Below, one piece after another: positions 9,264 through 20,101 of a stretch of DNA of 43,205 bases. Source of the DNA: Bacteroidaceae bacterium (lineage in GTDB: Bacteria; Bacteroidota; Bacteroidia; Bacteroidales; Bacteroidaceae); NCBI GenBank assembly GCA_017547205.1, contig JAFYQH010000064.1, forward strand, positions 1 through 43,205, read 5' to 3'. The notes under the pieces are model-generated. The model was not told where the DNA came from and did not search any database. It was given only the letters and a program-made list of their open reading frames with translations. How positions within the stretch are numbered: position 1 is the first letter of the stretch; every line of letters begins with the position of its first letter. The position numbers and the translations under genes are program-made.

Positions 9264-10988
9264 CTAACGGCTATGCCTGGTGTGTATGCTCTCTATCAGG
9301 AGCTGCACCTCGCCATGCTTGTAAACATTGTCCTCAAGGGTATAGCATATGTCGAACAGCTGCTTAGACTTTATGTACTTTGCCTGACGGCTCTGACCGA
9401 AGGCTATACCGTTGAGTATCGTGTTCGACATGTTGTCGACCAACTCGAGCTTAATATGCTCCTGACGGCGGCCTACGACCTTGCTGGCACCGTAATCGCA
9501 CACGTTATGCGTGCAGAAGACCGGCTTGGGGTTGTCGGGACCATGAGGAGCGAACCTCTTGAGATCGCTGAAGAACTTGCGGCTTATCTGGTGAAAGTCA
9601 ATCTCGGCATCGATTTCAATTACAGGGGCTGTCTGCTCTGGAAGTATGTTCTCGGTAACGAACTCCTCGAAACGTGCAGCAAAGGCTTCGACATTCTCAA
9701 CCTTCATGGAGAATCCGGCAGCATAGGTGTGACCGCCGAAATTGTCGAGCAAATCACGGCAGCTTTCCATGGCCTTGTATACGTCGAAACCGGTTACGGA
9801 ACGCGCGGAGCCTGTCGCTATGTCACCTGTACAGGTTATGACCACTGCGGGACGGTGATAGACCTCGGTGAGACGCGATGCGACTATGCCTATGACACCG
9901 CGGTGCCAGTCGGGGTTGAAGATTACTATGGCACGACGTTCGTCGAAGCTCTCAAGACCTTCGACAATGGTGTTGGCCTCCTCGGTCATGCTCTTGTCAA
10001 GTTCCTTGCGGGTCTCGTTCATCTCGTTGATTCTGTGGCTGAGTTCAAGAGCTGCAGGCAACTCGTTCTCGATGAGAAGGTCTACAGCGACCTTTCCCTG
10101 CATGACACGACCCGAAGCGTTGATGCGGGGGCCTATCTTGAATATTATGTCATTTATACCGACCTCCTTCTCCTCGAGACCGCAGACCTGTATGATTGCC
10201 TTGAGACCTGTACTTGGGCTATGGTTTATCTGCTTTATGCCATGATATGCCAATATGCGGTTCTCGCCCATGATGGGAACAAGGTCCGATGCGATGCTCA
10301 CCGCAACAAGGTCGAGCAACGGATAGAGCTGTTCCGGCGGTATGGCATTGTCCATGGCAAAGGCCTGCATGAACTTGAAACCTACACCGCAACCCGAAAG
10401 ATGCGGATAAGGATAGGTAGAATCGGCACGCTTGGGATTGAGGATAGCAACAGCACACGGGAGCTCTTCATCTGGCATATGGTGGTCGCACACGATGAAA
10501 TCGATTCCCAAAGACTTGGCATAGGCTATCTCCTCTATTGCCTTTATGCCGCAATCGAGCACAATTATCAATTTAACGCCTGTGGAATAGGCATAGTCGA
10601 CACCTCTTTTGGAGATGCCGTATCCATCCTCGTTACGGTCGGGAATATAGTAGTCTATATTCGACGAGAAGTGTTGCAGAAACTTATAGACCAAAGCAAC
10701 GGCTGTTGTGCCGTCAACATCGTAATCGCCATACACCAGTATGCGCTCCTTCTTGCCCAGCGCCTTGTTCAGACGTTTCACGGCAATGTCCATGTCCTTC
10801 ATGAGGAACGGATTATGGAGATGGCTCAGTTTGGGGCGGAAGAAGTTCCTGGCTTCTGCAACAGAAGTTATACCTCGCTTCACCAACAGACCGCACAGCA
10901 CCGGGCTCATGTCGAGTTCAGCCGACAGAGTATTGGCGGTTATAGCCTGTTCGTTTGTGGGAGGCTGAAATTTCCATTTCTGTCCCAT
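9264..10988 (-). CDS. recJ: Single-stranded-DNA exonuclease RecJ
   Basis: The protein has 574 residues, the usual RecJ length. The DHH phosphoesterase motifs are clear: DYDVDGT at 88-94, LDCG near 145, and DHH at 168-170. The DHHA1 part follows (GPRINASGRV; GIVASRL; GGHTYAAGFS). RecJ degrades single-stranded DNA 5' to 3' with Mn or Mg. It is the first gene of the recJ-recQ-cstA unit. A candidate -7 sequence on the minus strand near 11160 (TATCTTTAC, one mismatch) would give a 5' leader of roughly 150 bases. The 580-residue open frame on the opposite strand of this gene is a shadow. Confidence 0.96.
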   Translation of the reverse strand: MGQKWKFQPPTNEQAITANTLSAELDMSPVLCGLLVKRGITSVAEARNFFRPKLSHLHNPFLMKDMDIAVKRLNKALGKKERILVYGDYDVDGTTAVALVYKFLQHFSSNIDYYIPDRNEDGYGISKRGVDYAYSTGVKLIIVLDCGIKAIEEIAYAKSLGIDFIVCDHHMPDEELPCAVAILNPKRADSTYPYPHLSGCGVGFKFMQAFAMDNAIPPEQLYPLLDLVAVSIASDLVPIMGENRILAYHGIKQINHSPSTGLKAIIQVCGLEEKEVGINDIIFKIGPRINASGRVMQGKVAVDLLIENELPAALELSHRINEMNETRKELDKSMTEEANTIVEGLESFDERRAIVIFNPDWHRGVIGIVASRLTEVYHRPAVVITCTGDIATGSARSVTGFDVYKAMESCRDLLDNFGGHTYAAGFSMKVENVEAFAARFEEFVTENILPEQTAPVIEIDAEIDFHQISRKFFSDLKRFAPHGPDNPKPVFCTHNVCDYGASKVVGRRQEHIKLELVDNMSNTILNGIAFGQSRQAKYIKSKQLFDICYTLEDNVYKHGEVQLLIESIHTRHSR

Positions 10989-11439
10989 TATATATTATTT
11001 TTTATTTTTGCATAGGCAAGCGAGAATCACCTTCATTAACAAAAGCAACACCAATCCCGTTCATCAACATACCGCACTAAACATCTATCGCAAAACGACA
11101 AAACGAGAAAGGGCGATGCAAACATGCCATATTTGATGCAAGATAATTCTCTCAATTTGTAAAGATACAGAAAAGTGTTATAAAAAACATTGATTCCAGA
11201 AAAATTTTCATGGAATCAATGTTTTTTAAGTATTACATGCCATTGTATCTGCACATGAGCCAAACAACAAAGTTGACAACTGTCCGTCAATCATACAAAC
11301 AGACACCAATCCACAACTTCATCTTCACAAAAGGGTCAAACGCACACATTTTTCCTGCATTTATCCATACTGCAAAGGGGACGCGAAATTTGTACCGCAC
11401 TTGCGCGATACAAATGAACCAGCCGAAGCGGTCACATGA
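10989..11439. other. Intergenic region between recJ and the ABC/STAS operon
   Basis: These 451 bases hold no convincing gene. Visible items are a probable recJ promoter near 11160 on the minus strand, a terminator hairpin at 11182-11227, and a smaller hairpin at 11389-11414 (10-bp arms with one mismatch). A 113-codon plus-strand frame crosses this region but runs antisense into the STAS gene and looks like chance. Confidence 0.6.
11182..11227 (-). terminator. Terminator downstream of the ABC/STAS operon
   Basis: A perfect 17-bp inverted repeat (11182-11198 with 11211-11227) has a 12-base loop. Read on the minus strand it ends in TTTTTT. It lies about 210 bases after the last stop codon of the operon, leaving an unusually long 3' region. 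Confidence 0.75.
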
Positions 11440-11742
11440 CTATTCTATTGTAAGAATTCGGGAAAAACCTGTTAAATCAAAGACTGAACGTACATCTTTG
11501 GAAAGATTACGAAGCACAAACTTGCCGCCATTGGAAACAACAGATTTATAAGATGAAAGAATAACACGGAGCCCCGAGCTGCTGACGTATTCCATACCTT
11601 TACATTCGAAGATAACAGTCTGGGATTTTTCGGCAAGCAAAGGAGCAATACTCCTTTCTAGCTCAGGTGCGGTAACCGTATCAAGGCGACCATCAATCAC
11701 AATCACCTGGGCATCACCCTCATTCAACATATTGACTACCAT
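11440..11742 (-). CDS. STAS-domain anti-anti-sigma-like protein (second of two)
   Basis: The 100-residue protein is a single STAS domain, as in SpoIIAA and RsbV. The segment GMEYVSSSGLRVIL (about 50-63) holds the serine cluster at 54-56; the family is phosphorylated at this position by a cognate kinase and dephosphorylated by a PP2C/SpoIIE phosphatase. Both partners are encoded next door: the gene starts 13 bases after the stop of the SpoIIE-kinase fusion. An ATG four codons in (11730) is an alternative start. It is the last gene of the six-gene operon. The target could be an anti-sigma factor elsewhere or the kinase-like domains of this operon. Confidence 0.9.
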   Translation of the reverse strand: MVVNMLNEGDAQVIVIDGRLDTVTAPELERSIAPLLAEKSQTVIFECKGMEYVSSSGLRVILSSYKSVVSNGGKFVLRNLSKDVRSVFDLTGFSRILTIE

Positions 11743-11755
11743 AATTATTTATTTT

Positions 11756-14101
11756 TCAGATTTTTTTACTCATAACAAGAATGTTTTTCCCTCCATTGCG
11801 TCGATATTCAACAGAATCCATAATCTGCCTTATGAGGAATATTCCAAGCCCTCCTATACGCCTCTCCTCTGCCGGCAATGTTACATCAACATCGGGCACC
11901 ATAGTCGGATCGAAAGGCTTACCGGAATCGGAAATAACAAACGTAACACTACTGCCGTCACACTTGGCAACAATTTCTATGGAACCGCACTTGCCTTCGG
12001 GATAAGCATACATCACGACATTGGTAACTGCCTCCTCGAGTACTAAATTAAAGTTAAAAACAGACTCTTCGGAGAAATTGAATTCCGACGCGAATTCACC
12101 TACCAGGAGAGGCAGTTTAGCTATTTCGGACAATTCGTTTACCAAATGAAGTTCCTTTTCGACCTCATTTACGCAATTATCCGTAGCATTATATTTCAGA
12201 CACAAGATTGTGATATCATCACTCTGTTCTGTACCGGCAGCATAGGTATCGACACTGGACTTGACACCCTCGACAACATCTCTTGCATTACCACAAGCAA
12301 TTGCAAGCACATCCTTAAGACGCGCATCGGAATAGAGTTCTTTTGACGGATTCTCGGCCTCGGTCACGCCATCGGTGTATAGGAACAGCATTGTCCCCAT
12401 CTCAACAATAATCTTCTGAGCCACATACGGGAAACCGCCGATGACGCCCAATGGCAGATTGGGATTCACATCGAGAGGTTTAACACCACCATCCGGGGCA
12501 ACAAGCAACGGCGCATTGTGTCCGGCGTTGCAATAGTGCAGCTCACCGCTCGGCAAATCAAGTATTCCGAGAAAGAATGTACAGAACATGTTGCTTTCGT
12601 TAGACTCGGCCAATGCATTGTTGAGAGAAGCAACAATCTCTGACGGATCACTGACATGCGATGCAACAGTCCTGAATAGTCGACAGGTTACAGCCATCAC
12701 AAGTGATGCCGGTATGCCCTTGCCAGAGACGTCGCCTATAATAAAATAGAGTTTCTCATTCTCAATGAAAAAATCGTACAGGTCGCCACCTACCTCTTTT
12801 GCAGGAACAAGCATGGCATAAAGGTCAACGTCTTTTCTGTCAGGGAAAGGGGGAAACATCTTGGGAATCATCCCCATCTGTATTTCACGCGCAATACGAA
12901 GTTCGCTCTCGATACGTTCGTTGTTTGCAACGGTTGTCTTCAACTCCTCGGTATATTTAACCAAAGACCTCTGCATATAGTAGAAAGAGTCCCTGAGCAT
13001 TCTCATTTCGTTCCGACTCCTCACACGCGGAAGGCGTGCCGAGAAATTTCCATGTGCAATATCATTGGCAGATTGGGCAAACTGTACCAATGGAGATGTA
13101 AGCCGGTATATTGTCACATAACAGAGAACAGCCATTATCAGCAACACAAAGAATGCAATCCAAAACATATTGCTCCTCATACTGTCAACACCGGCAAACA
13201 CTTCGGAGTAAAGGCATGATACAGCAACAGACCAACCGGTAGTCTTTATTGGAGCATAGACGAAATAGAACTCATGCCCATCACGTTCGAATGTAGCGAC
13301 ACCACTCTCACCGGCCTGCATCTTATGTCCGACTTCCTTGAAGCGGCTGACGTTAATGGCTGAATATGAGGTAAAGATGGTTTCATTAAGCACGGCATCC
13401 TTGTCATAATGAACAATAAATGTTCCTCCTCGGCTTATCATTATGTTAACAGAATTCTCATAGGGGCGAATACAGTTCACCTGCTCGGCAAACCACTCCA
13501 AAGAGACATCGGCAGTAAAGATGGCAAACAGTTTTCCTTCAGCGTCAAATAGCGGGAAAGAATATGTAGTCATCATGATATCTGCACCGCCTTCGTCGAA
13601 ATAAGGTTCACTCCAATATGGCTTTCCAAGAATCTTTGGAATCTGATACCAATCATCGTAATGATAATCATACTCCTCACGCCCCAATTGCTTGTTATGA
13701 ATACTATCACCGACACGATAAGAGTAAGGAGAGAAATATAGTCCCTTTTCTTTAAAATAGTTCGGCTCGAATGCCACAGCACTTCCACTGATGAAGGGAT
13801 TGTCAACGAGCATCATTCTCGTGAGTTTATACATGCTCTCAGGGTCATCACAGCCTTCAGAAACCACCCATGACATATTCTTCACAGCTGTCTCTACGGA
13901 GTTGAGGACATTGTCAATTTTCATAACAGCCCCATCGATAGATGCCTGGACACGCTCAACAGCCTCGTTGGAAACAAAATCGCGGGAAGTCCTGTAATTC
14001 CACACAAAACCAGTCACAAAAACTAACACCACTACAAGCAGTATATACAAACTAAGTTTTGTAGAGAACGAATGTATATATTTACCTAAGCGAATCTTCA
14101 T
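11756..14101 (-). CDS. Cache-HAMP-SpoIIE phosphatase fused to RsbW-like kinase
   Basis: The protein has 781 residues. TM1 lies near 16-34, a periplasmic dCache-like sensor at 36-305, TM2 near 312-332 and HAMP at 333-385. A PP2C/SpoIIE domain follows at about 405-636 with metal-binding aspartates in GGDLYD (Asp440), GDVSGKG (Asp457), YTDGVTEA (Asp577) and QSDDIT. Residues 650-781 form an RsbW-type ATPase/kinase fold with N-box EEAVTN (689-694), DSGKPFDP and GGLGIFLI. Phosphatase and opposing kinase therefore sit in one chain. The start overlaps the binding-protein stop by 4 bases (ATGA), so it is co-translated with transporter genes. The likely role is to sense a periplasmic ligand and set the phosphorylation state of the STAS partners. 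Confidence 0.9.
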   Translation of the reverse strand: MKIRLGKYIHSFSTKLSLYILLVVVLVFVTGFVWNYRTSRDFVSNEAVERVQASIDGAVMKIDNVLNSVETAVKNMSWVVSEGCDDPESMYKLTRMMLVDNPFISGSAVAFEPNYFKEKGLYFSPYSYRVGDSIHNKQLGREEYDYHYDDWYQIPKILGKPYWSEPYFDEGGADIMMTTYSFPLFDAEGKLFAIFTADVSLEWFAEQVNCIRPYENSVNIMISRGGTFIVHYDKDAVLNETIFTSYSAINVSRFKEVGHKMQAGESGVATFERDGHEFYFVYAPIKTTGWSVAVSCLYSEVFAGVDSMRSNMFWIAFFVLLIMAVLCYVTIYRLTSPLVQFAQSANDIAHGNFSARLPRVRSRNEMRMLRDSFYYMQRSLVKYTEELKTTVANNERIESELRIAREIQMGMIPKMFPPFPDRKDVDLYAMLVPAKEVGGDLYDFFIENEKLYFIIGDVSGKGIPASLVMAVTCRLFRTVASHVSDPSEIVASLNNALAESNESNMFCTFFLGILDLPSGELHYCNAGHNAPLLVAPDGGVKPLDVNPNLPLGVIGGFPYVAQKIIVEMGTMLFLYTDGVTEAENPSKELYSDARLKDVLAIACGNARDVVEGVKSSVDTYAAGTEQSDDITILCLKYNATDNCVNEVEKELHLVNELSEIAKLPLLVGEFASEFNFSEESVFNFNLVLEEAVTNVVMYAYPEGKCGSIEIVAKCDGSSVTFVISDSGKPFDPTMVPDVDVTLPAEERRIGGLGIFLIRQIMDSVEYRRNGGKNILVMSKKI

Positions 14102-15039
14102 CTTGGGCCTCCTTTCATCTCTTCATAACCAACACTTCTCCTAAGAATGCCTTTTTCAAAAGCAACGGAATCGAGACGTTGGAAATCCTTTTTGTCCAAC
14201 TTGAAAGTAGGAGCATCGCAGCCGTCGGGACATTGCAATTTCAGAATCTCTTCCAACATCCATTTCTGCATTATATAACTGGTTGCAATATTCTCTTTTT
14301 TGGTATATTTGAGCACTATATCAACAGTTTCATCAACATTTTCCCGCGCCCACTCCCAACCGCGACGCGATGCTTCTATAAAAGCATCGACACTCTCTTT
14401 GTTCTTTTCATAATAGCTACGTGTCGCATACAACCCATCATCGGGGAAGTCATAGACAGTACCCGCAAAAGAAATAACAGACACATCATCAAAACCCGCA
14501 GCCTTTATTTTGAGAGCTTCACCGTAGCTCATGGCCAAAGTAGCATCAATAGCCCCTGATATGAAGAGATTGATATTCTGTATGAACGGTACCCACTCGA
14601 TTCCAAGATTCATGTCGAAATTGGGCATCTTCGCAAGTTCACCATAGCCACCCTTCCATATACCGACACGTTTTCCACGCAAATCGGCGAATGTACGGAT
14701 ATTCTTATCCTTTGAAACAACCTGCAAACCTGAGTGTTGTGATGTCTGCATGAGATTCACGAGTTCAAGGCCATTGCTAACTTCGGACATAGCATTCAGG
14801 AGTTGCATTGAAACGATGTCGCTTGAACCATCCTTTATACGATTCACAGCCGGAGACGATACCGACGGGTGGACAATCTCCACATCAAGACCGGCACCTT
14901 TATAAAACCCTTTCTCAAGAGCGACATAATAGCCCGCGAACTGGCTTTGGGCTGTCCATTGCGGAGTGAACACCATGCGGGTCTGAGCCGAAATTTGTAA
15001 AGGCAACAGGAGCAGCAAGAATCTTAAAAATAGCCTCAT
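14098..15039 (-). CDS. ABC transporter substrate-binding protein, NMT1/SsuA type
   Basis: The protein has 313 residues from the ATG at 15039, which starts a signal peptide (MRLFLRFLLLLLPLQISAQ). A TTG four codons upstream overlaps the stop of the ATPase gene and is less likely. Family features include VFTPQWTAQSQFAGYYVALE, GFYKGAGLDVEI and the DLRGKRVGIWKGG segment. NMT1/THI5-like proteins bind small organics such as thiamine precursors, sulfonates or riboflavin. The sequence has no lipobox and should be soluble in the periplasm. It lies between the ATPase and the SpoIIE fusion, and could either feed the permease or present ligand to the Cache sensor. The ligand is unknown. Confidence 0.88.
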   Translation of the reverse strand: MRLFLRFLLLLLPLQISAQTRMVFTPQWTAQSQFAGYYVALEKGFYKGAGLDVEIVHPSVSSPAVNRIKDGSSDIVSMQLLNAMSEVSNGLELVNLMQTSQHSGLQVVSKDKNIRTFADLRGKRVGIWKGGYGELAKMPNFDMNLGIEWVPFIQNINLFISGAIDATLAMSYGEALKIKAAGFDDVSVISFAGTVYDFPDDGLYATRSYYEKNKESVDAFIEASRRGWEWARENVDETVDIVLKYTKKENIATSYIMQKWMLEEILKLQCPDGCDAPTFKLDKKDFQRLDSVAFEKGILRRSVGYEEMKGGPR

Positions 15040-15047
15040 AACAATCG

Positions 15048-16142
15048 TCAATTCATTTCTTTAAGTTGGAAACGGACACGTAAACGGAGTGATGAGGGAT
15101 CCCCCTCCAACAATTCATCGACTCCATCACACAAGCCTCTTACAATACTCATGCCTATCTCATCCGGTTCAAATTCCGATGCACCGAATATAGCAGTTAC
15201 CCCTTGCGGCATGAGCAGTTCAAGAGATATAGAACCATTCTTCCTGGAGTAACGCAAAGAAAGTTCCACTGTGCCGAGATCCAATGGAACAATATTCAAG
15301 ACCTCTTCGGCTAGCAACTGGACGCGAAACTGTACCTCCTTGCCAAGAGAATGACGCTTGCAGAACTGTATCATTCCAGCCTGCAGTTCATAAAGGTCAT
15401 ACCTACGTGAATGTATCCGATAACTATAGTCGAGAATTGTATTTACAAAAATATTTGTCTGTTCCTTCTTGGGAGAATCGAAAACCTCCTCAGGCGTTCC
15501 CTGCTCATAGACAACACCTTCGTTCATAAAAATCACATGACTTGCGACCTCACGTGCAAATTGAAGATCGTGTGTTACAATAATCATTGCCATCCCCCTC
15601 TTGGAAAGATCTCGCACAAGACATTGCATCTCACTCACCATCACTGGATCAAGAGCCGATGTCGGTTCATCTAAAAGTAACAACGATGGTTCCATTGCAA
15701 GACAACGGGCTATAGCAACACGCTGGCGTTGCCCGGCAGAAAGACTCTCTACATTAGCCGAAGCCTTCTCAGCAAGACCAACCTGTTCAAGTTTTTCAAC
15801 AGCCAGTTCCTCAGCACTCTTTTTCGACAAGCCAAGGACACGTACAGGAGCAAGCATCACATTATTCAGAACATTGAGATGCGGAAAAAGATTATAGGAC
15901 TGAAAAACCATGCCTATACTATGTCTGCCCCCTTTGGACAGGAGTCTGCGAGGGTCGCCATCTATGTTCACACTACCCGAATCGGGCTCCTCAAGACCTG
16001 CGATACAACGCAACAAGGTACTCTTTCCACACCCCGTAGGACCGACCACACATAGCGTATCGTGTTCCTTCAAGGTAAAGGAGACACCGTTGAGAACAAT
16101 TCTGCCACCGAATGTTTTTTTCAGATTCGATACTTCAACCAT
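15048..16142 (-). CDS. ABC transporter ATPase with kinase-like C-terminal tail
   Basis: The protein has 364 residues; the ATG at 16142 is chosen over a TTG two codons upstream. Residues 1-238 form a polar-amino-acid type ABC ATPase: Walker A GPTGCGKST (34-42), Q-loop Gln81, signature LSAGQ (134-138), Walker B LLLLDEP (154-160) and His191. Residues 240-364 are extra. They resemble a degenerate HATPase/RsbW fold: LLAEEVLN (277-283) keeps the ExxxN spacing of the N-box, and EIGMSIVRGL (328-337) resembles the G-box, with the matching helix and strand order of the SpoIIE fusion's kinase domain. The DxGxP motif is absent, so ATP turnover by the tail is doubtful. The start overlaps the permease gene by 8 bases. 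Confidence 0.88.
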   Translation of the reverse strand: MVEVSNLKKTFGGRIVLNGVSFTLKEHDTLCVVGPTGCGKSTLLRCIAGLEEPDSGSVNIDGDPRRLLSKGGRHSIGMVFQSYNLFPHLNVLNNVMLAPVRVLGLSKKSAEELAVEKLEQVGLAEKASANVESLSAGQRQRVAIARCLAMEPSLLLLDEPTSALDPVMVSEMQCLVRDLSKRGMAMIIVTHDLQFAREVASHVIFMNEGVVYEQGTPEEVFDSPKKEQTNIFVNTILDYSYRIHSRRYDLYELQAGMIQFCKRHSLGKEVQFRVQLLAEEVLNIVPLDLGTVELSLRYSRKNGSISLELLMPQGVTAIFGASEFEPDEIGMSIVRGLCDGVDELLEGDPSSLRLRVRFQLKEMN

Positions 16143-17208
16143 GAACAAATAGTTTTTTGTACAACCAATACAACAATTCTGTTATTGCCCATGAAAGGAA
16201 CAGATATAGTAGCGAAACCACAAACAATGGTATAAAGGCCTCCAAAGTATCAGTTTGAATGGCATCGGCAGCCTTTACAAGATCCTTCTGCGCAATGTAG
16301 CCTGCATAAGATGTGGAACGGAGAAGCAGTTTGAGTTCACCGGCCATCAAAGGCATAGAACTCTTGAGAGCCTGAGGGAGTATCACATAATGGTAGGCCT
16401 GCCTCTCCTTTAGACCAAGCATGAATGCCGATTCGCGTTGCTCCTTACCCACCTGCATTATATGTATCTTGAAAATCTTATAAAGACTCCCCGAAGTATA
16501 TATACCAAGAGCTATTATGGAAACTACTACTCCACTGAGCCCCGATGAAACAAACACAACGTAGTAAAAGAACATCATGAGCACAACGGGAGGAATATCG
16601 TGCAACACAGATACCATCCAACTCAACGGCTTATATACACACAGCCACTTGTGCTTTATCGCCATGTAGGTGAGTAAGGCAGCAAGCAGCACAGCAAATA
16701 TCGCAGCAAAAAAGAATATTACTATTGTTGTATAAAGACCTTTTAGCAAAAGAGCCGCAGCATCACTATTCAGCAATCCCCTCTCGAGCCTCATTTTCCA
16801 GTTTCTCCACCAACCAAGAGAAGTAATGCCATATTGCTCACTGTGCCCACATCTGCTTTCGTGAACAACTGCATAGTAGCATGTACCGCAGACATTTCCG
16901 ATAAGTACATATTCCGAGTTCTTGCCAGTAGCCTCGGCGGCCATGACACTGTCAACAACGGCAGCATCACATCTACCGGCACTCAGGTCAAGAAACAATT
17001 GCATAAACTTCCCGTACTCCTTAAACTCAGCACCAGGCATTATATCAAGAAGCGAATCCCGTGGTAGTTCTACATTCAGCAACCCCACGTTAGCAGCGGC
17101 GAGATCTTCGGGTGTACTATAGAGTTCTTTATCGGAACACGCCGACAGCACTCCACTACAAAACACACAAAGGAGCAGAACCTGTAATATATCACGCAAT
17201 TTAGACAT
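16135..17208 (-). CDS. ABC permease fused to a lipoprotein-type binding half-domain
   Basis: The protein has 357 residues from the ATG at 17208; the frame also opens at a TTG four codons earlier. It starts with a lipoprotein signal (LLLCVFCSGVLSACS, lipobox LSAC). Residues about 25-125 look like half of a family 3 solute-binding protein (LSAGRCDAAVVDSVMAAEA). From about residue 150 it is a polar-amino-acid type permease with hydrophobic segments and the EAA-like loop (ESAFMLGLKERQAYHYVILPQALK). A lipobox followed by an integral permease is unusual; the front part could be processed as a lipoprotein or act as a signal anchor. It starts 12 bases after the first STAS gene and overlaps the ATPase gene by 8 bases. 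Confidence 0.85.
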   Translation of the reverse strand: MSKLRDILQVLLLCVFCSGVLSACSDKELYSTPEDLAAANVGLLNVELPRDSLLDIMPGAEFKEYGKFMQLFLDLSAGRCDAAVVDSVMAAEATGKNSEYVLIGNVCGTCYYAVVHESRCGHSEQYGITSLGWWRNWKMRLERGLLNSDAAALLLKGLYTTIVIFFFAAIFAVLLAALLTYMAIKHKWLCVYKPLSWMVSVLHDIPPVVLMMFFYYVVFVSSGLSGVVVSIIALGIYTSGSLYKIFKIHIMQVGKEQRESAFMLGLKERQAYHYVILPQALKSSMPLMAGELKLLLRSTSYAGYIAQKDLVKAADAIQTDTLEAFIPLFVVSLLYLFLSWAITELLYWLYKKLFVHG

Positions 17209-17220
17209 GAGAAAAACCAA

Positions 17221-17520
17221 TCACTCCTCTATATTGAAAATATGACTGAAACCGGACATGTCGAACACGCTCTTCACAAGCGGATGCAGACCTCTGATAA
17301 TCATCTTACAGCCTTTTGCTGCAGTATCATGGTAAAGCTTAAGGAAGAAGCGGAGCCCTGAGCTGCAGATATACTCCATACCCGTGCAATCCACAACCAC
17401 AACATCGCCTACAGCAAGCTCCAACGACCCTAGGCTTCCTTCCAGTTCCTTGAGGCCTGAAGCATTCAAGGAATAGTCTATATACACTTTGTGTGTCTTA
17501 AAATTATCGTTTATACTCAT
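17221..17520 (-). CDS. STAS-domain anti-anti-sigma-like protein (first of two)
   Basis: The 99-residue protein is a single STAS domain. GMEYICSSGLRFFL (about 48-61) carries the serine pair at 53-54, the expected phosphorylation site. It is related to, but clearly different from, the STAS protein at 11440-11742 (shared VKSVFDMSGFSHIF versus VRSVFDLTGFSRIL). It is the first gene of the operon, directly behind a consensus promoter, and the permease starts 12 bases after its stop. The two STAS proteins bracket the operon, so each may pair with a different kinase-like domain. Confidence 0.9.
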   Translation of the reverse strand: MSINDNFKTHKVYIDYSLNASGLKELEGSLGSLELAVGDVVVVDCTGMEYICSSGLRFFLKLYHDTAAKGCKMIIRGLHPLVKSVFDMSGFSHIFNIEE

Positions 17521-17551: not shown

Positions 17552-17585
17552 GCAAATATAGTCTTTTTTAGGATTAAAAGACAAA
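17552..17585 (-). promoter_or_regulatory. Consensus Bacteroidetes promoter of the ABC/STAS operon
   Basis: On the minus strand TTTG (17585-17582) is followed after 21 bases by TATATTTGC (17560-17552), a perfect match to TAnnTTTGC. The expected transcript start is near 17545, about 25 bases before the first STAS ATG. It is the only consensus promoter I see for the six genes. Confidence 0.8.
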
Positions 17586-17770: not shown

Positions 17771-17801
17771 AAAAAACGCGGGTGACCAATGGCCACCCGC
17801 G
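17771..17801 (-). terminator. Terminator of the C1 peptidase gene
   Basis: An 11-bp stem (17777-17787 with 17791-17801, one G-U type mismatch) is followed on the minus strand by six T residues. It lies 20 bases after the peptidase stop. The rest of 17521-17820 holds only the ABC/STAS promoter and AT-rich sequence. Confidence 0.85.
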
Positions 17802-17820
17802 CTATTTTCGAGTAATATCA

Positions 17821-19014
17821 TTACTTGATACCAAGTTTCTTGCGGATATCCTTGGGGAGAGCGTCCTTATGAACAACGATATTCATTGTCTTGTAACGTG
17901 CAAATGCCTTTGACGCATACCAAATACCCTTGTAATCACCGGCCTCACCCCATGAGTTCTTCACCATGTAGTACTCTACGCCGTCCTTGTCCTTTGCGAT
18001 ACCATAGATCTGCATGCCATGGTCGTCTGTAGTCTCCCAGTTGTCATAAGCCTGTTGACGCTCCTCCTGAGTGCACCACTTCTCGGTTGAAGGCTTCGGA
18101 GTGTTCTTCTTCTCCTCTTCGCTCAACTTGAGCCACTTAGCCATGTCGGAACCCTGAAGGTCGCCCTTCTTCTCGTCGGTCATCACAGCCTTACCCTTGC
18201 GATCGAAGCCTGTCTCGCTGACGTCACTTCCCCATGCAATGGTGTAACCCTCCATGATAGCGTTGTCAAAAACCTTCATAAACTCGTCGATAGGCAGGTT
18301 ATATGATTTTGCCCAACGCCAGTTGTCCTGAATCTCAAGAACAAACGACTCATAGAAAGGATGATGTGTATATGATGTCAATGATACATAGTCATCTGCA
18401 TTCAGGCCAAGTGACTCATAGAATGACTGCGGAGTATACTCCTTGCCATTGTAAGTAAACTTCTCGGGACGTACGCCAAGATAGATGTCGTGGATAGAAG
18501 CTATAGCCTTTTTCCAAAGAGGCTGGCCGTCTGTACCAACCTGCAGACTGCGGTGCTTGCCCTCGGCAATAGCCTTTACAACAGCCTCGCTGACTGCTGT
18601 AAGTTCGTTGTGGTTGCTCAAAGTCTCACCATACATCACACCCGGACGCATCTCGGCCTCGGGAACAAGACCGAACTTCTCCATACCATAGAGAACATCA
18701 TAGAATGAGCCTCCCTGTGAGAAAGAGACATCTCCGTGAGTACGGACAGCCTTGTCTGCGCGATCGAGATATGTATTATGAACGATGAACATCTCAGAAA
18801 GATCATACTCGCCCTTGCCCATACGGATGAGCTCTGACTCGATGAATGCGAGTGAAGAGTAGCACCAGCATGTACCGGCACGGTTCTGGTTCTTGATACT
18901 TGTAATAGGATTCTCCTTCACGACTGTAAAATCGGGAGCCGCAGCAGCCTGCTCCTGAGCGAAAGCGCCAAGGCTTACGAAGGCCAGCGCTGCAAACAAA
19001 ATTGATTTCTTCAT
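17821..19014 (-). CDS. Secreted C1-family peptidase, bleomycin-hydrolase-like
   Basis: The protein has 397 residues from the ATG at 19014, which begins a signal peptide (MKKSILFAALAFVSLGAFAQ). The frame extends 25 codons upstream but without a plausible start. Catalytic residues of the papain clan are visible: Gln43 and Cys49 in NQNRAGTCW, His332 in DDHGMQIYG and Asn353 in VKNSWG. Spacing and internal motifs fit the PepC/bleomycin hydrolase branch, though cytoplasmic PepC proteins are usually longer and lack a leader. It is expected in the periplasm or outside, trimming peptides. It lies 49 bases after recA with its own terminator. Confidence 0.9.
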   Translation of the reverse strand: MKKSILFAALAFVSLGAFAQEQAAAAPDFTVVKENPITSIKNQNRAGTCWCYSSLAFIESELIRMGKGEYDLSEMFIVHNTYLDRADKAVRTHGDVSFSQGGSFYDVLYGMEKFGLVPEAEMRPGVMYGETLSNHNELTAVSEAVVKAIAEGKHRSLQVGTDGQPLWKKAIASIHDIYLGVRPEKFTYNGKEYTPQSFYESLGLNADDYVSLTSYTHHPFYESFVLEIQDNWRWAKSYNLPIDEFMKVFDNAIMEGYTIAWGSDVSETGFDRKGKAVMTDEKKGDLQGSDMAKWLKLSEEEKKNTPKPSTEKWCTQEERQQAYDNWETTDDHGMQIYGIAKDKDGVEYYMVKNSWGEAGDYKGIWYASKAFARYKTMNIVVHKDALPKDIRKKLGIK

Positions 19015-19063
19015 AGTATTTAATTTAACATTGTCTTTACACAAAAAACTGACGGGCGCGGGG

Positions 19064-20101
19064 TTACTCGGCACCCTCCTGGGCATCACCCTTCATAGCC
19101 TCGAATATTCTAGCCTCGAGTTCCTCGGCCAGTTCGGGATTGTCGGCAATGAGAGCCTTTGTACGGTCACGTCCCTGCGCGAGCTTGGTATCGTTGTAAC
19201 TGAAGAACGAACCGCTCTTCTTGATAATGCCATACTGAACACCCAAATCGACGATTTCGCCCGTACGGGATATTCCCTCGCCGAACATGATGTCGAACTC
19301 GGCCTTGCGGAACGGAGGAGCGACCTTGTTCTTCACCACCTTCACACGAACTTGGTTACCGATAGCCTCCTCACCGTCCTTGAGCTGACTCACACGACGG
19401 ATGTCGAGACGTACCGATGCATAGAACTTGAGCGCGTTACCACCGGTCGTCGTCTCGGGATTGCCGAACATAACACCAATCTTCTCACGCAACTGGTTGA
19501 TGAAGATACATGTCGTCTTTGTCTTGCTTATTGCCGATGTAAGCTTGCGCAATGCCTGTGACATAAGACGCGCCTGCAGGCCTACCTTATTGTCACCCAT
19601 TTCGCCCTCTATCTCGGCCTTCGGCGTAAGCGCAGCCACAGAGTCGATAACGATTATATCGATGGCCGACGAGCGGATAAGCTGCTCGGCTATCTCAAGC
19701 GCCTGTTCACCACAGTCGGGCTGTGAAATGAGCAGATTGTCGATATCCACGCCAAGCTTCTGTGCATAGAAGCGATCAAAAGCATGCTCGGCATCGATAA
19801 TGGCAGCAATGCCACCCATTTTCTGTGCCTCGGCAATAGCGTGTATCGCAAGTGTAGTCTTTCCCGAAGACTCGGGACCATATATCTCAATTATTCGGCC
19901 ACGAGGAAAACCTCCGACACCAAGAGCAGCGTTCAAGCCTACAGAACCTGTAGGAATTACATCGACATCCTCGAAGTTGTCATCACCGAGCTTCATAATG
20001 GAGCCCTTGCCGAAACTTTTCTCTATCTTGTCCATCGCCGCCTGCAAAGCACGCAGTTTCTCACTGCCGGCGATATTATCCAATTCTTCTTTCTTTGCCA
20101 T
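19064..20101 (-). CDS. recA: Recombinase RecA
   Basis: The protein has 345 residues, normal for RecA. Walker A GPESSGKT lies at 75-82; [20 protein letters not shown], the L2 region [20 protein letters not shown] and [12 protein letters not shown] are all present. RecA forms the filament that drives strand exchange. No LexA-type operator or consensus promoter is evident in the 81 bases before the ATG, which instead hold a tandem 9-base repeat. recA may be read partly from the carboxyspermidine dehydrogenase gene upstream. Confidence 0.98.

Follow-up and report, generated by a model that had tools for sequence, protein, structure and literature searches.

An ABC importer operon interleaved with partner-switching genes in a Bacteroidaceae bacterium, and a predicted RsbW-fold tail as its proposed STAS dock

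Partner-type protein switches are best known for their control of gene expression, and the post-translational control of ATP-binding cassette (ABC) transporters is poorly understood. Here we describe an operon from a gut-dwelling Bacteroidaceae bacterium in which the parts of both are interleaved. Within the 43,205-nt stretch that was analysed (assembly GCA_017547205.1, contig JAFYQH010000064.1, positions 1 to 43,205; hereafter the window), six minus-strand reading frames at 17520-11440 encode, in order, a first STAS protein (STAS1), a permease, an ABC ATPase, an NMT1-type binding protein, a PDC-HAMP-SpoIIE-kinase sensor and a second STAS protein (STAS2). Pfam, run together with NCBIfam, returned STAS, BPD_transp_1, ABC_tran, NMT1, PDC-HAMP-SpoIIE-HATPase_c_2 and STAS in the same order. 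Read from their likely ATG starts, the genes are tightly packed: 12 nt separate STAS1 from the permease, 8 nt the ATPase from NMT1 and 13 nt the sensor from STAS2, while permease and ATPase overlap by 8 nt and NMT1 and sensor by 4 nt. An earlier examination of the letters by a model without database searches (the sequence-only reading) had described six same-strand genes with gaps of 13 nt or less and some overlaps, and every frame was recovered where it had been placed. It had also put a consensus promoter ahead of the operon. A match to TTTG-N21-TAnnTTTG, which we take to be the Bacteroidetes-type promoter consensus, does lie 32 nt upstream of STAS1 (17553..17585, minus strand) and is the sole exact match in the 43 kb, yet at least one match arises in 34 of 100 shuffles, so the pattern alone is weak.

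The importer itself is of a familiar kind. The permease (16135..17220, likely ATG 17208) belongs to the polar amino-acid (HisM/EhuD) type (BPD_transp_1 4.2e-9; EhuD 3.9e-18), and the ATPase (15048..16148, likely ATG 16142) couples a GlnQ/EhuA-like nucleotide-binding domain (ABC_tran 3.5e-35; GlnQ 8.8e-71 over residues 3-236), complete with the Walker A motif GPTGCGKST and an LSAGQ signature, to a C-terminal extension. A GlnQ-type ATPase alongside a HisM-type permease marks a type I ABC importer of the polar amino-acid family, an assignment taken from the best NCBIfam models, whose scores fall below their equivalog cut-offs. No MlaE or MCE match appears among the Pfam and NCBIfam rows shown for the six proteins. 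The permease had been called a fusion: an N-terminal binding part is indeed present, but merely as the remnant of a fused amino-acid-type substrate-binding protein, a fragment at residues 29-108 by NCBIfam. Candidates for the importer's binding protein are this fragment and NMT1, which is of a different family and tracks SpoIIE. The length of the ATPase, correctly given as more than 350 residues, is explained by the RsbW-like domain at its C-terminus.

This extension (15051..15428, minus strand; 126 aa) is predicted to adopt the RsbW/SpoIIAB/SiaB fold. When tails were aligned with an RsbW-type profile, hhalign gave a score of 73.4 over 107 columns, against a maximum of 19.2 for 60 shuffled decoys. 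The AlphaFold model (mean predicted local distance difference test, pLDDT, 93.2) has a Bergerat-type beta-alpha-alpha-beta-beta-alpha-beta-beta fold, whose closest structures (Foldseek, VIA) are UsfX, SpoIIAB, SiaB and RsbW, that is, anti-sigma or RsbW-kind partners of STAS proteins; matches to histidine-kinase catalytic domains were weaker, and that identity was rejected. A PDB sequence search with the tail profile gave no matches. The motifs needed to bind ATP have been lost: the G1 aspartate survives in 3/48 tails, the G1 glycine in 7/48 and the three G2 glycines in 0, 1 and 0 of 48. Because of this loss the tail is predicted to be a pseudokinase, a relative of the RsbW/SpoIIAB family without kinase activity, and an active second kinase is rejected. 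We propose that it serves as a dock for STAS. The gene set and the predicted fold of the tail are secure.

Kinase activity would instead reside in the membrane sensor (11756..14101, minus strand), in which a PDC/Cache domain is followed by HAMP, a SpoIIE phosphatase (residues 449-637) and an RsbW-type kinase (656-779), the phosphatase-kinase fusion that had been anticipated (SpoIIE 3e-51, MCP-like_PDC_1 3.1e-28, HATPase_c_2 1.2e-26, HAMP 3.9e-7). N, G1 and G2 boxes are present in the kinase domain, and all seven residues checked are kept in 28/28 RsbW domains, the window's included; the match of the sensor to the SiaA model is weak (57 bits against a cut-off of 700). In the PDC domain the arginine of the amino-acid motif, at W-2, is absent, and W151-Y152 and D198 are spaced like F188-Y189-D235 of PctD (PMC10104139). 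Identity as an amine sensor is not claimed, because the upstream motif residues are unmatched. Both STAS proteins retain the acceptor serine, which stands two residues before a glycine in 32/32 STAS sequences compared. STAS2 (11440..11742, minus strand; 100 aa; STAS 3.3e-20), with the acceptor motif YVSSSGLR, is nearest to the STAS that follows SpoIIE in relatives and is the core STAS of the system, whereas STAS1 (17221..17520, minus strand; 99 aa; Pfam STAS 2.7e-12), with the signature CSSG, forms a clade with three other pre-permease STAS proteins at 100/100 support and is a separate lineage. Its match to the MlaB model is weak (0.0087; 16.5 bits against a cut-off of 90).

Between importer and sensor lies the NMT1/SsuA-type periplasmic binding protein (14098..15051, minus strand; likely ATG 15039; NMT1 9.7e-33), which the sequence-only reading had counted as the importer's own. 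The comparison of loci does not support this, as NMT1 tracks the SpoIIE gene: it stands immediately before SpoIIE in 19/28 of the SpoIIE frames listed, which suggests that it serves the sensor, and it is probably the sensor's ligand-binding partner. Three of the other nine frames lie at sequence edges, the split gene of L069 accounts for two, and no same-strand NMT1 precedes SpoIIE within the covered stretch of L066, L067, L107 or L124. That NMT1 replaced a decayed fused domain as the importer's substrate-binding protein, an idea compatible with the other readings discussed below, is possible but doubtful. The fused domain is a fragment in the window and the permease has only 232-267 aa in L057, L107 and L118, which could leave the importer dependent on an external binding protein; yet L068 has NMT1-SpoIIE with no transporter gene found, the ABC gene lies more than 4 kb from NMT1 in L119 and L123 (L119 also having SBP_bac_3 proteins), in L107 permease, ATPase and SpoIIE occur without NMT1, and an amino-acid-type permease and ATPase would be paired with a binding protein of SsuA type.

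Within Bacteroidia the system occurs rarely and patchily: in a 395-genome sample of the class, the tail was found at E 1e-8 in the window's own genome alone. The SpoIIE protein occurs in 5/44 genomes of the window's genus, its own included (E 1e-30), and in 6/15 of the related genus g158 (E 1e-60). All six genes recur in the same order in G420 (L054), at 86-94% identity, and in G422 (L057). Within g158, G374, G332 and G346 carry SpoIIE and a tailed ATPase, G272 has a split SpoIIE with STAS, and in G204 and G253 a CitMHS-type permease is flanked by SpoIIE and STAS. At two loci (L066:7122-11709 and L067:4840-9356) the SpoIIE sensor and STAS flank a CitMHS/TrkA_C-type permease in place of the ABC importer; this permease may be a second transporter served by a similar switch. 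Searches with the window's permease found 12/198 genomes of the order, its own included, the other matches being 28-37% identical, and 15/201 of the family, where beyond the window at least 50% identity was reached at two places only (G374, G346); among the places with 24-36% identity, one in G332 and one in G346 are tailed-ATPase clusters with a full-length fused permease. Viral contigs scanned with the ATPase and permease held no relative.

A wider survey, covering one genome per species for 84,980 species, used a single peptide pattern built from Bacteroidales tails, so green-sulfur tails (below) were not expected among its matches. It yielded 18 loci, all titled as metagenome-assembled genomes of groups within Bacteroidales, 15/18 of them named after the gut of a herbivore (yak, sheep, goat, roe deer, water buffalo). 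A permease lies directly upstream of the tailed ATPase in 18/18, STAS is present in 16/18, SpoIIE with RsbW, fused or separate, in 15/18, and NMT1 in 14/18, a count that includes L102, whose NMT1 was read from L046 on the same contig. STAS1 precedes the permease in three of the 18 (L101, L107, L116) as well as in the window. SpoIIE is missing from L105, L106 and L117; the first two belong to one genome, G346, which has NMT1-SpoIIE-RsbW on another contig (L068), and L117 lies ~22 kb from the full cluster L104 on the same contig. Eight loci bear two identifiers (L046=L102, L047=L105, L054=L101, L056=L112, L057=L116, L058=L109, L065=L103, L070=L106). Gene picking dropped frames that overlapped a better frame by more than 60 nt, and the NMT1 of L102 and the STAS of L124 were recovered separately; when the search for STAS, RsbW and SpoIIE was run again on L071-L100 and L128-L138 with picking switched off, no count changed. 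Comparison of gene order across genomes, the check proposed with the sequence-only reading, thus finds a conserved core in Bacteroidales and not scattered homologues without common order.

Further genes accompany the Bacteroidales module at individual loci. A RelA_SpoT-family protein of 290-291 aa (E 2e-14 to 1e-12), which its sequence suggests to be an alarmone synthetase, is encoded beside it at four (L104:4723-5595, L106:6843-7715, L118:10452-11324, L110:5560-6435), standing between tailed ATPase and NMT1 in L118 and on the opposite strand in L110. STAS is fused to an APH-type phosphotransferase domain inside two clusters (L111:10710-12796, L058:2678-4758), the fusion being followed in L111 by a Y_phosphatase3 protein. 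A xanthine/uracil-family permease comes after an RsbW or STAS gene in one Bacteroidales locus (L103:14007-15299) and one green-sulfur locus (L121:8781-10481).

In the phylum at large, the tail was found at E 1e-5 in 32/296 genomes, 28 of them in a single family, f136, which lies outside the class. We take f136 to be green sulfur bacteria because the FMO protein family PF02327 is present in 5/5 of its tested members and absent from 3/3 tested members of the other two families. The gene order there is NMT1, SpoIIE, binding proteins, binding-protein-permease fusions, tailed ATPase, STAS and RsbW. L119 holds the complete set, as does L120 with its NMT1 cut by the locus end, and SBP_bac_3 was confirmed by Pfam in the proteins tested from both; L121 and L122 start inside SpoIIE, L123 is without RsbW, and L127 has tailed ATPase, STAS and RsbW with no SpoIIE or NMT1. 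In L124, from family f135, STAS and SpoIIE come first and are followed by binding proteins, permease and tailed ATPase, with no RsbW nearby. Because the core cluster recurs in other genera, in other families and in a distant lineage, its layout is not due to chance, and chance clustering is rejected. One genome, G504, assembled as a single contig, carries near-identical copies of the cluster (L120 and L121, at ~1.19 Mb and ~0.98 Mb of C1) ~206 kb apart. An alpha-acetolactate decarboxylase gene is convergent with the module in two loci (L122:5973-6698, L119:5972-6679), and the neighbouring frame in L120 has a similar N-terminus.

We propose that the operon is a self-contained phospho-switch for its ABC importer. 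Periplasmic NMT1 and the PDC domain would read the ligand, and the sensor's SpoIIE phosphatase and RsbW-type kinase would act on the acceptor serine of STAS2, perhaps also of STAS1. Unphosphorylated STAS would then have two RsbW-fold partners to choose from, the sensor's active kinase domain and the RsbW-like ATPase tail, and its docking on the tail would alter the coupling or stability of the ATPase, so that uptake is opened or closed. The phosphorylation, the docking and the effect on transport, with its sign, are read from the gene set and folds, and we give a probability of roughly 0.55 to the central claim, that a STAS phospho-switch gates the importer through the ATPase tail. The sequence-only reading's idea of a partner switch wired to an ABC importer gains from the conserved clustering, the RsbW-fold tail and the lack of another detected target; its use of NMT1 as the importer's binding protein gains no support. 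STAS distances between loci rise and fall with those of PP2C (r 0.94 over 20 loci, 0.79 over 16 Bacteroidales loci) and of RsbW (0.89 and 0.63 over the same two sets), the pattern that a single module should give.

Several observations weigh against this gating proposal. Pfam scans of nine single tails gave no HATPase match, and an initial comparison of tail and RsbW profiles, each built from nine sequences, gave a weak match (probability 28.7%, 32 columns). The partial correlation between STAS and tail is 0.65 (p 0.001) over all 24 loci but 0.14 (p 0.067) within 17 Bacteroidales loci, where it is exceeded by that between STAS and the ATPase domain (0.35, p 0.001). In green sulfur bacteria the divergence of tail relative to ATPase is similar with and without a linked STAS (2.39 vs 2.58), and 18/26 tailed-ATPase loci of f136 have no STAS within short flanks (in L072-L100, ~0.8 kb upstream and ~1.5 kb downstream). 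Eleven of those STAS-less loci were inspected over 11-17 kb (L128-L138), and in 11/11 no STAS, separate RsbW or SpoIIE was found; the tail therefore has a use without a linked switch, and of all the evidence these solo tails tell most strongly against STAS and tail being obligatorily linked. The same loci and mixed correlations, with the separation of module pieces in one genome (L047, L068, L070), speak for co-transcription without contact, under which the switch would drive something unrelated to the importer, for instance gene expression or a second messenger, and the tail would be a generic regulatory or dimerisation domain. We nevertheless consider this unlikely: the association recurs in distant lineages with differing gene orders, the tail's closest structural kin are RsbW-kind anti-sigma and STAS-partner proteins, and no sigma-B/F-type factor was detected in the window genome.

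That last point comes from a search of the window genome, an assembly of 2.2 Mb and 83% completeness, for other targets of the switch. The operon's SpoIIE is the one match to PF07228; PF13581 has one above cut-off, the operon's kinase, and another below it at 20.7 bits; and PF01740 has three, STAS1, STAS2 and a 571-aa frame likely, by its length, to be a SulP transporter, so that no free STAS beyond STAS1 and STAS2 was found in this 83%-complete genome. Sigma70_r3 has one match, as expected for the housekeeping factor alone; the system would therefore be a non-sigma variant of partner switching, and a sigma-factor output is rejected for the genome as assembled. G420 (92% complete) gives equal counts throughout, except that the weak PF13581 match is absent. 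Against the gating proposal, a target may be missing at 83% completeness, G374, G346 and G332 have 2, 2 and 3 region-3 sigma matches, and four green-sulfur genomes with one region-3 sigma each have further STAS, RsbW or SpoIIE genes elsewhere, so the argument from the lack of another target is strongest, among the genomes checked, for the window's own and G420. Information might also flow in reverse, with the transporter as sensor: the tail would bind or free STAS according to transport state, flux would set STAS phosphorylation, and STAS would act on an unrecognised target. This requires the same parts, and the CitMHS-type permease of L066 and L067 and the RelA_SpoT-family genes of four loci show that other clients are possible; but no other STAS client was found in the 83%-complete window genome, and the sensor already has a PDC domain of its own and a paired NMT1, so we regard reverse flow, too, as improbable.

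A terminator-like hairpin (17775..17803, minus strand), a 13-pair stem followed by a T-run, lies after the preceding gene and upstream of the operon, though such sites are no commoner in the window than in shuffles, and a terminator-like inverted repeat with a T-run and 24-nt arms, 92% complementary, follows STAS2 (11181..11228, minus strand). Scans for E. coli-type promoters (21 found against 16.0 in shuffles) and for terminators (5 against 6.6) are at about chance level. Upstream, where the window has a 422-aa frame (17821-19089), G420 has only a short one (L054:2527-2775), which matches the C-terminal end of the C1-type peptidase; downstream, both have a recJ-like gene, and the 580-aa open frame antisense to it in the window (9273-11015, plus strand) is probably an effect of composition.

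Each part of the operon belongs to a known family, and the arrangement is probably partner switching with an importer as output. With RsbU/RsbV/RsbW and SpoIIE/SpoIIAA/SpoIIAB it shares a SpoIIE phosphatase, a GHKL kinase and a STAS protein with an acceptor serine; unlike either, it has no companion sigma-B/F-type factor among the matches in the window genome, and the RsbW-fold domain proposed as second partner is fused to an ABC ATPase as its tail. SiaABCD/HsbRAD likewise brings together a sensor-HAMP-SpoIIE protein, a kinase and a STAS protein, its output, a diguanylate cyclase, is not a sigma factor, and SiaB resembles the tail closely in structure; here, however, the output is probably the importer, and in the window a single protein contains both kinase and phosphatase. 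In MetN-type ABC ATPases, too, a regulatory domain is fused after the importer nucleotide-binding domain, but their C-terminal tails bind substrate, whereas the operon's has the RsbW fold. A pairing of a small STAS protein with an ABC ATPase is also seen in MlaFEDB, in which MlaB binds MlaF and is needed for stability, and in which the phosphomimetic Thr52Glu weakens the association (PMC7367683); in the operon the corresponding association is by gene order and proposed docking. The authors of that paper found no other STAS-ABC pair in the PDB and state that phosphorylation of MlaB had yet to be shown (PMC7367683). The MlaF tail has ~25 residues and no RsbW-fold domain, and Mla is a lipid system, unlike the operon, whose importer is of amino-acid type and which has a phosphatase-kinase set in its midst. 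A literature search with little subscription or bioRxiv coverage found no published ABC ATPase with an RsbW-fold tail, nor a gene cluster like the operon. The odds are about even that this is a new class of ABC importers gated after translation, in which an RsbW-fold pseudokinase on the ATPase acts as second partner in partner switching and STAS phosphorylation would set import directly, not transcription, from green sulfur bacteria to herbivore-gut Bacteroidales.

Whether a STAS protein bound to an ABC ATPase becomes phosphorylated, and by what route, is a question that the work on MlaFB did not answer (PMC7367683). Because one operon here encodes a phosphatase, a kinase and STAS together with an ATPase that bears a matching candidate dock, that question becomes directly testable. 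If the proposal is true, partner switching extends to membrane transport, which could account for the free STAS and SpoIIE genes of bacteria without sigma-B-type factors.

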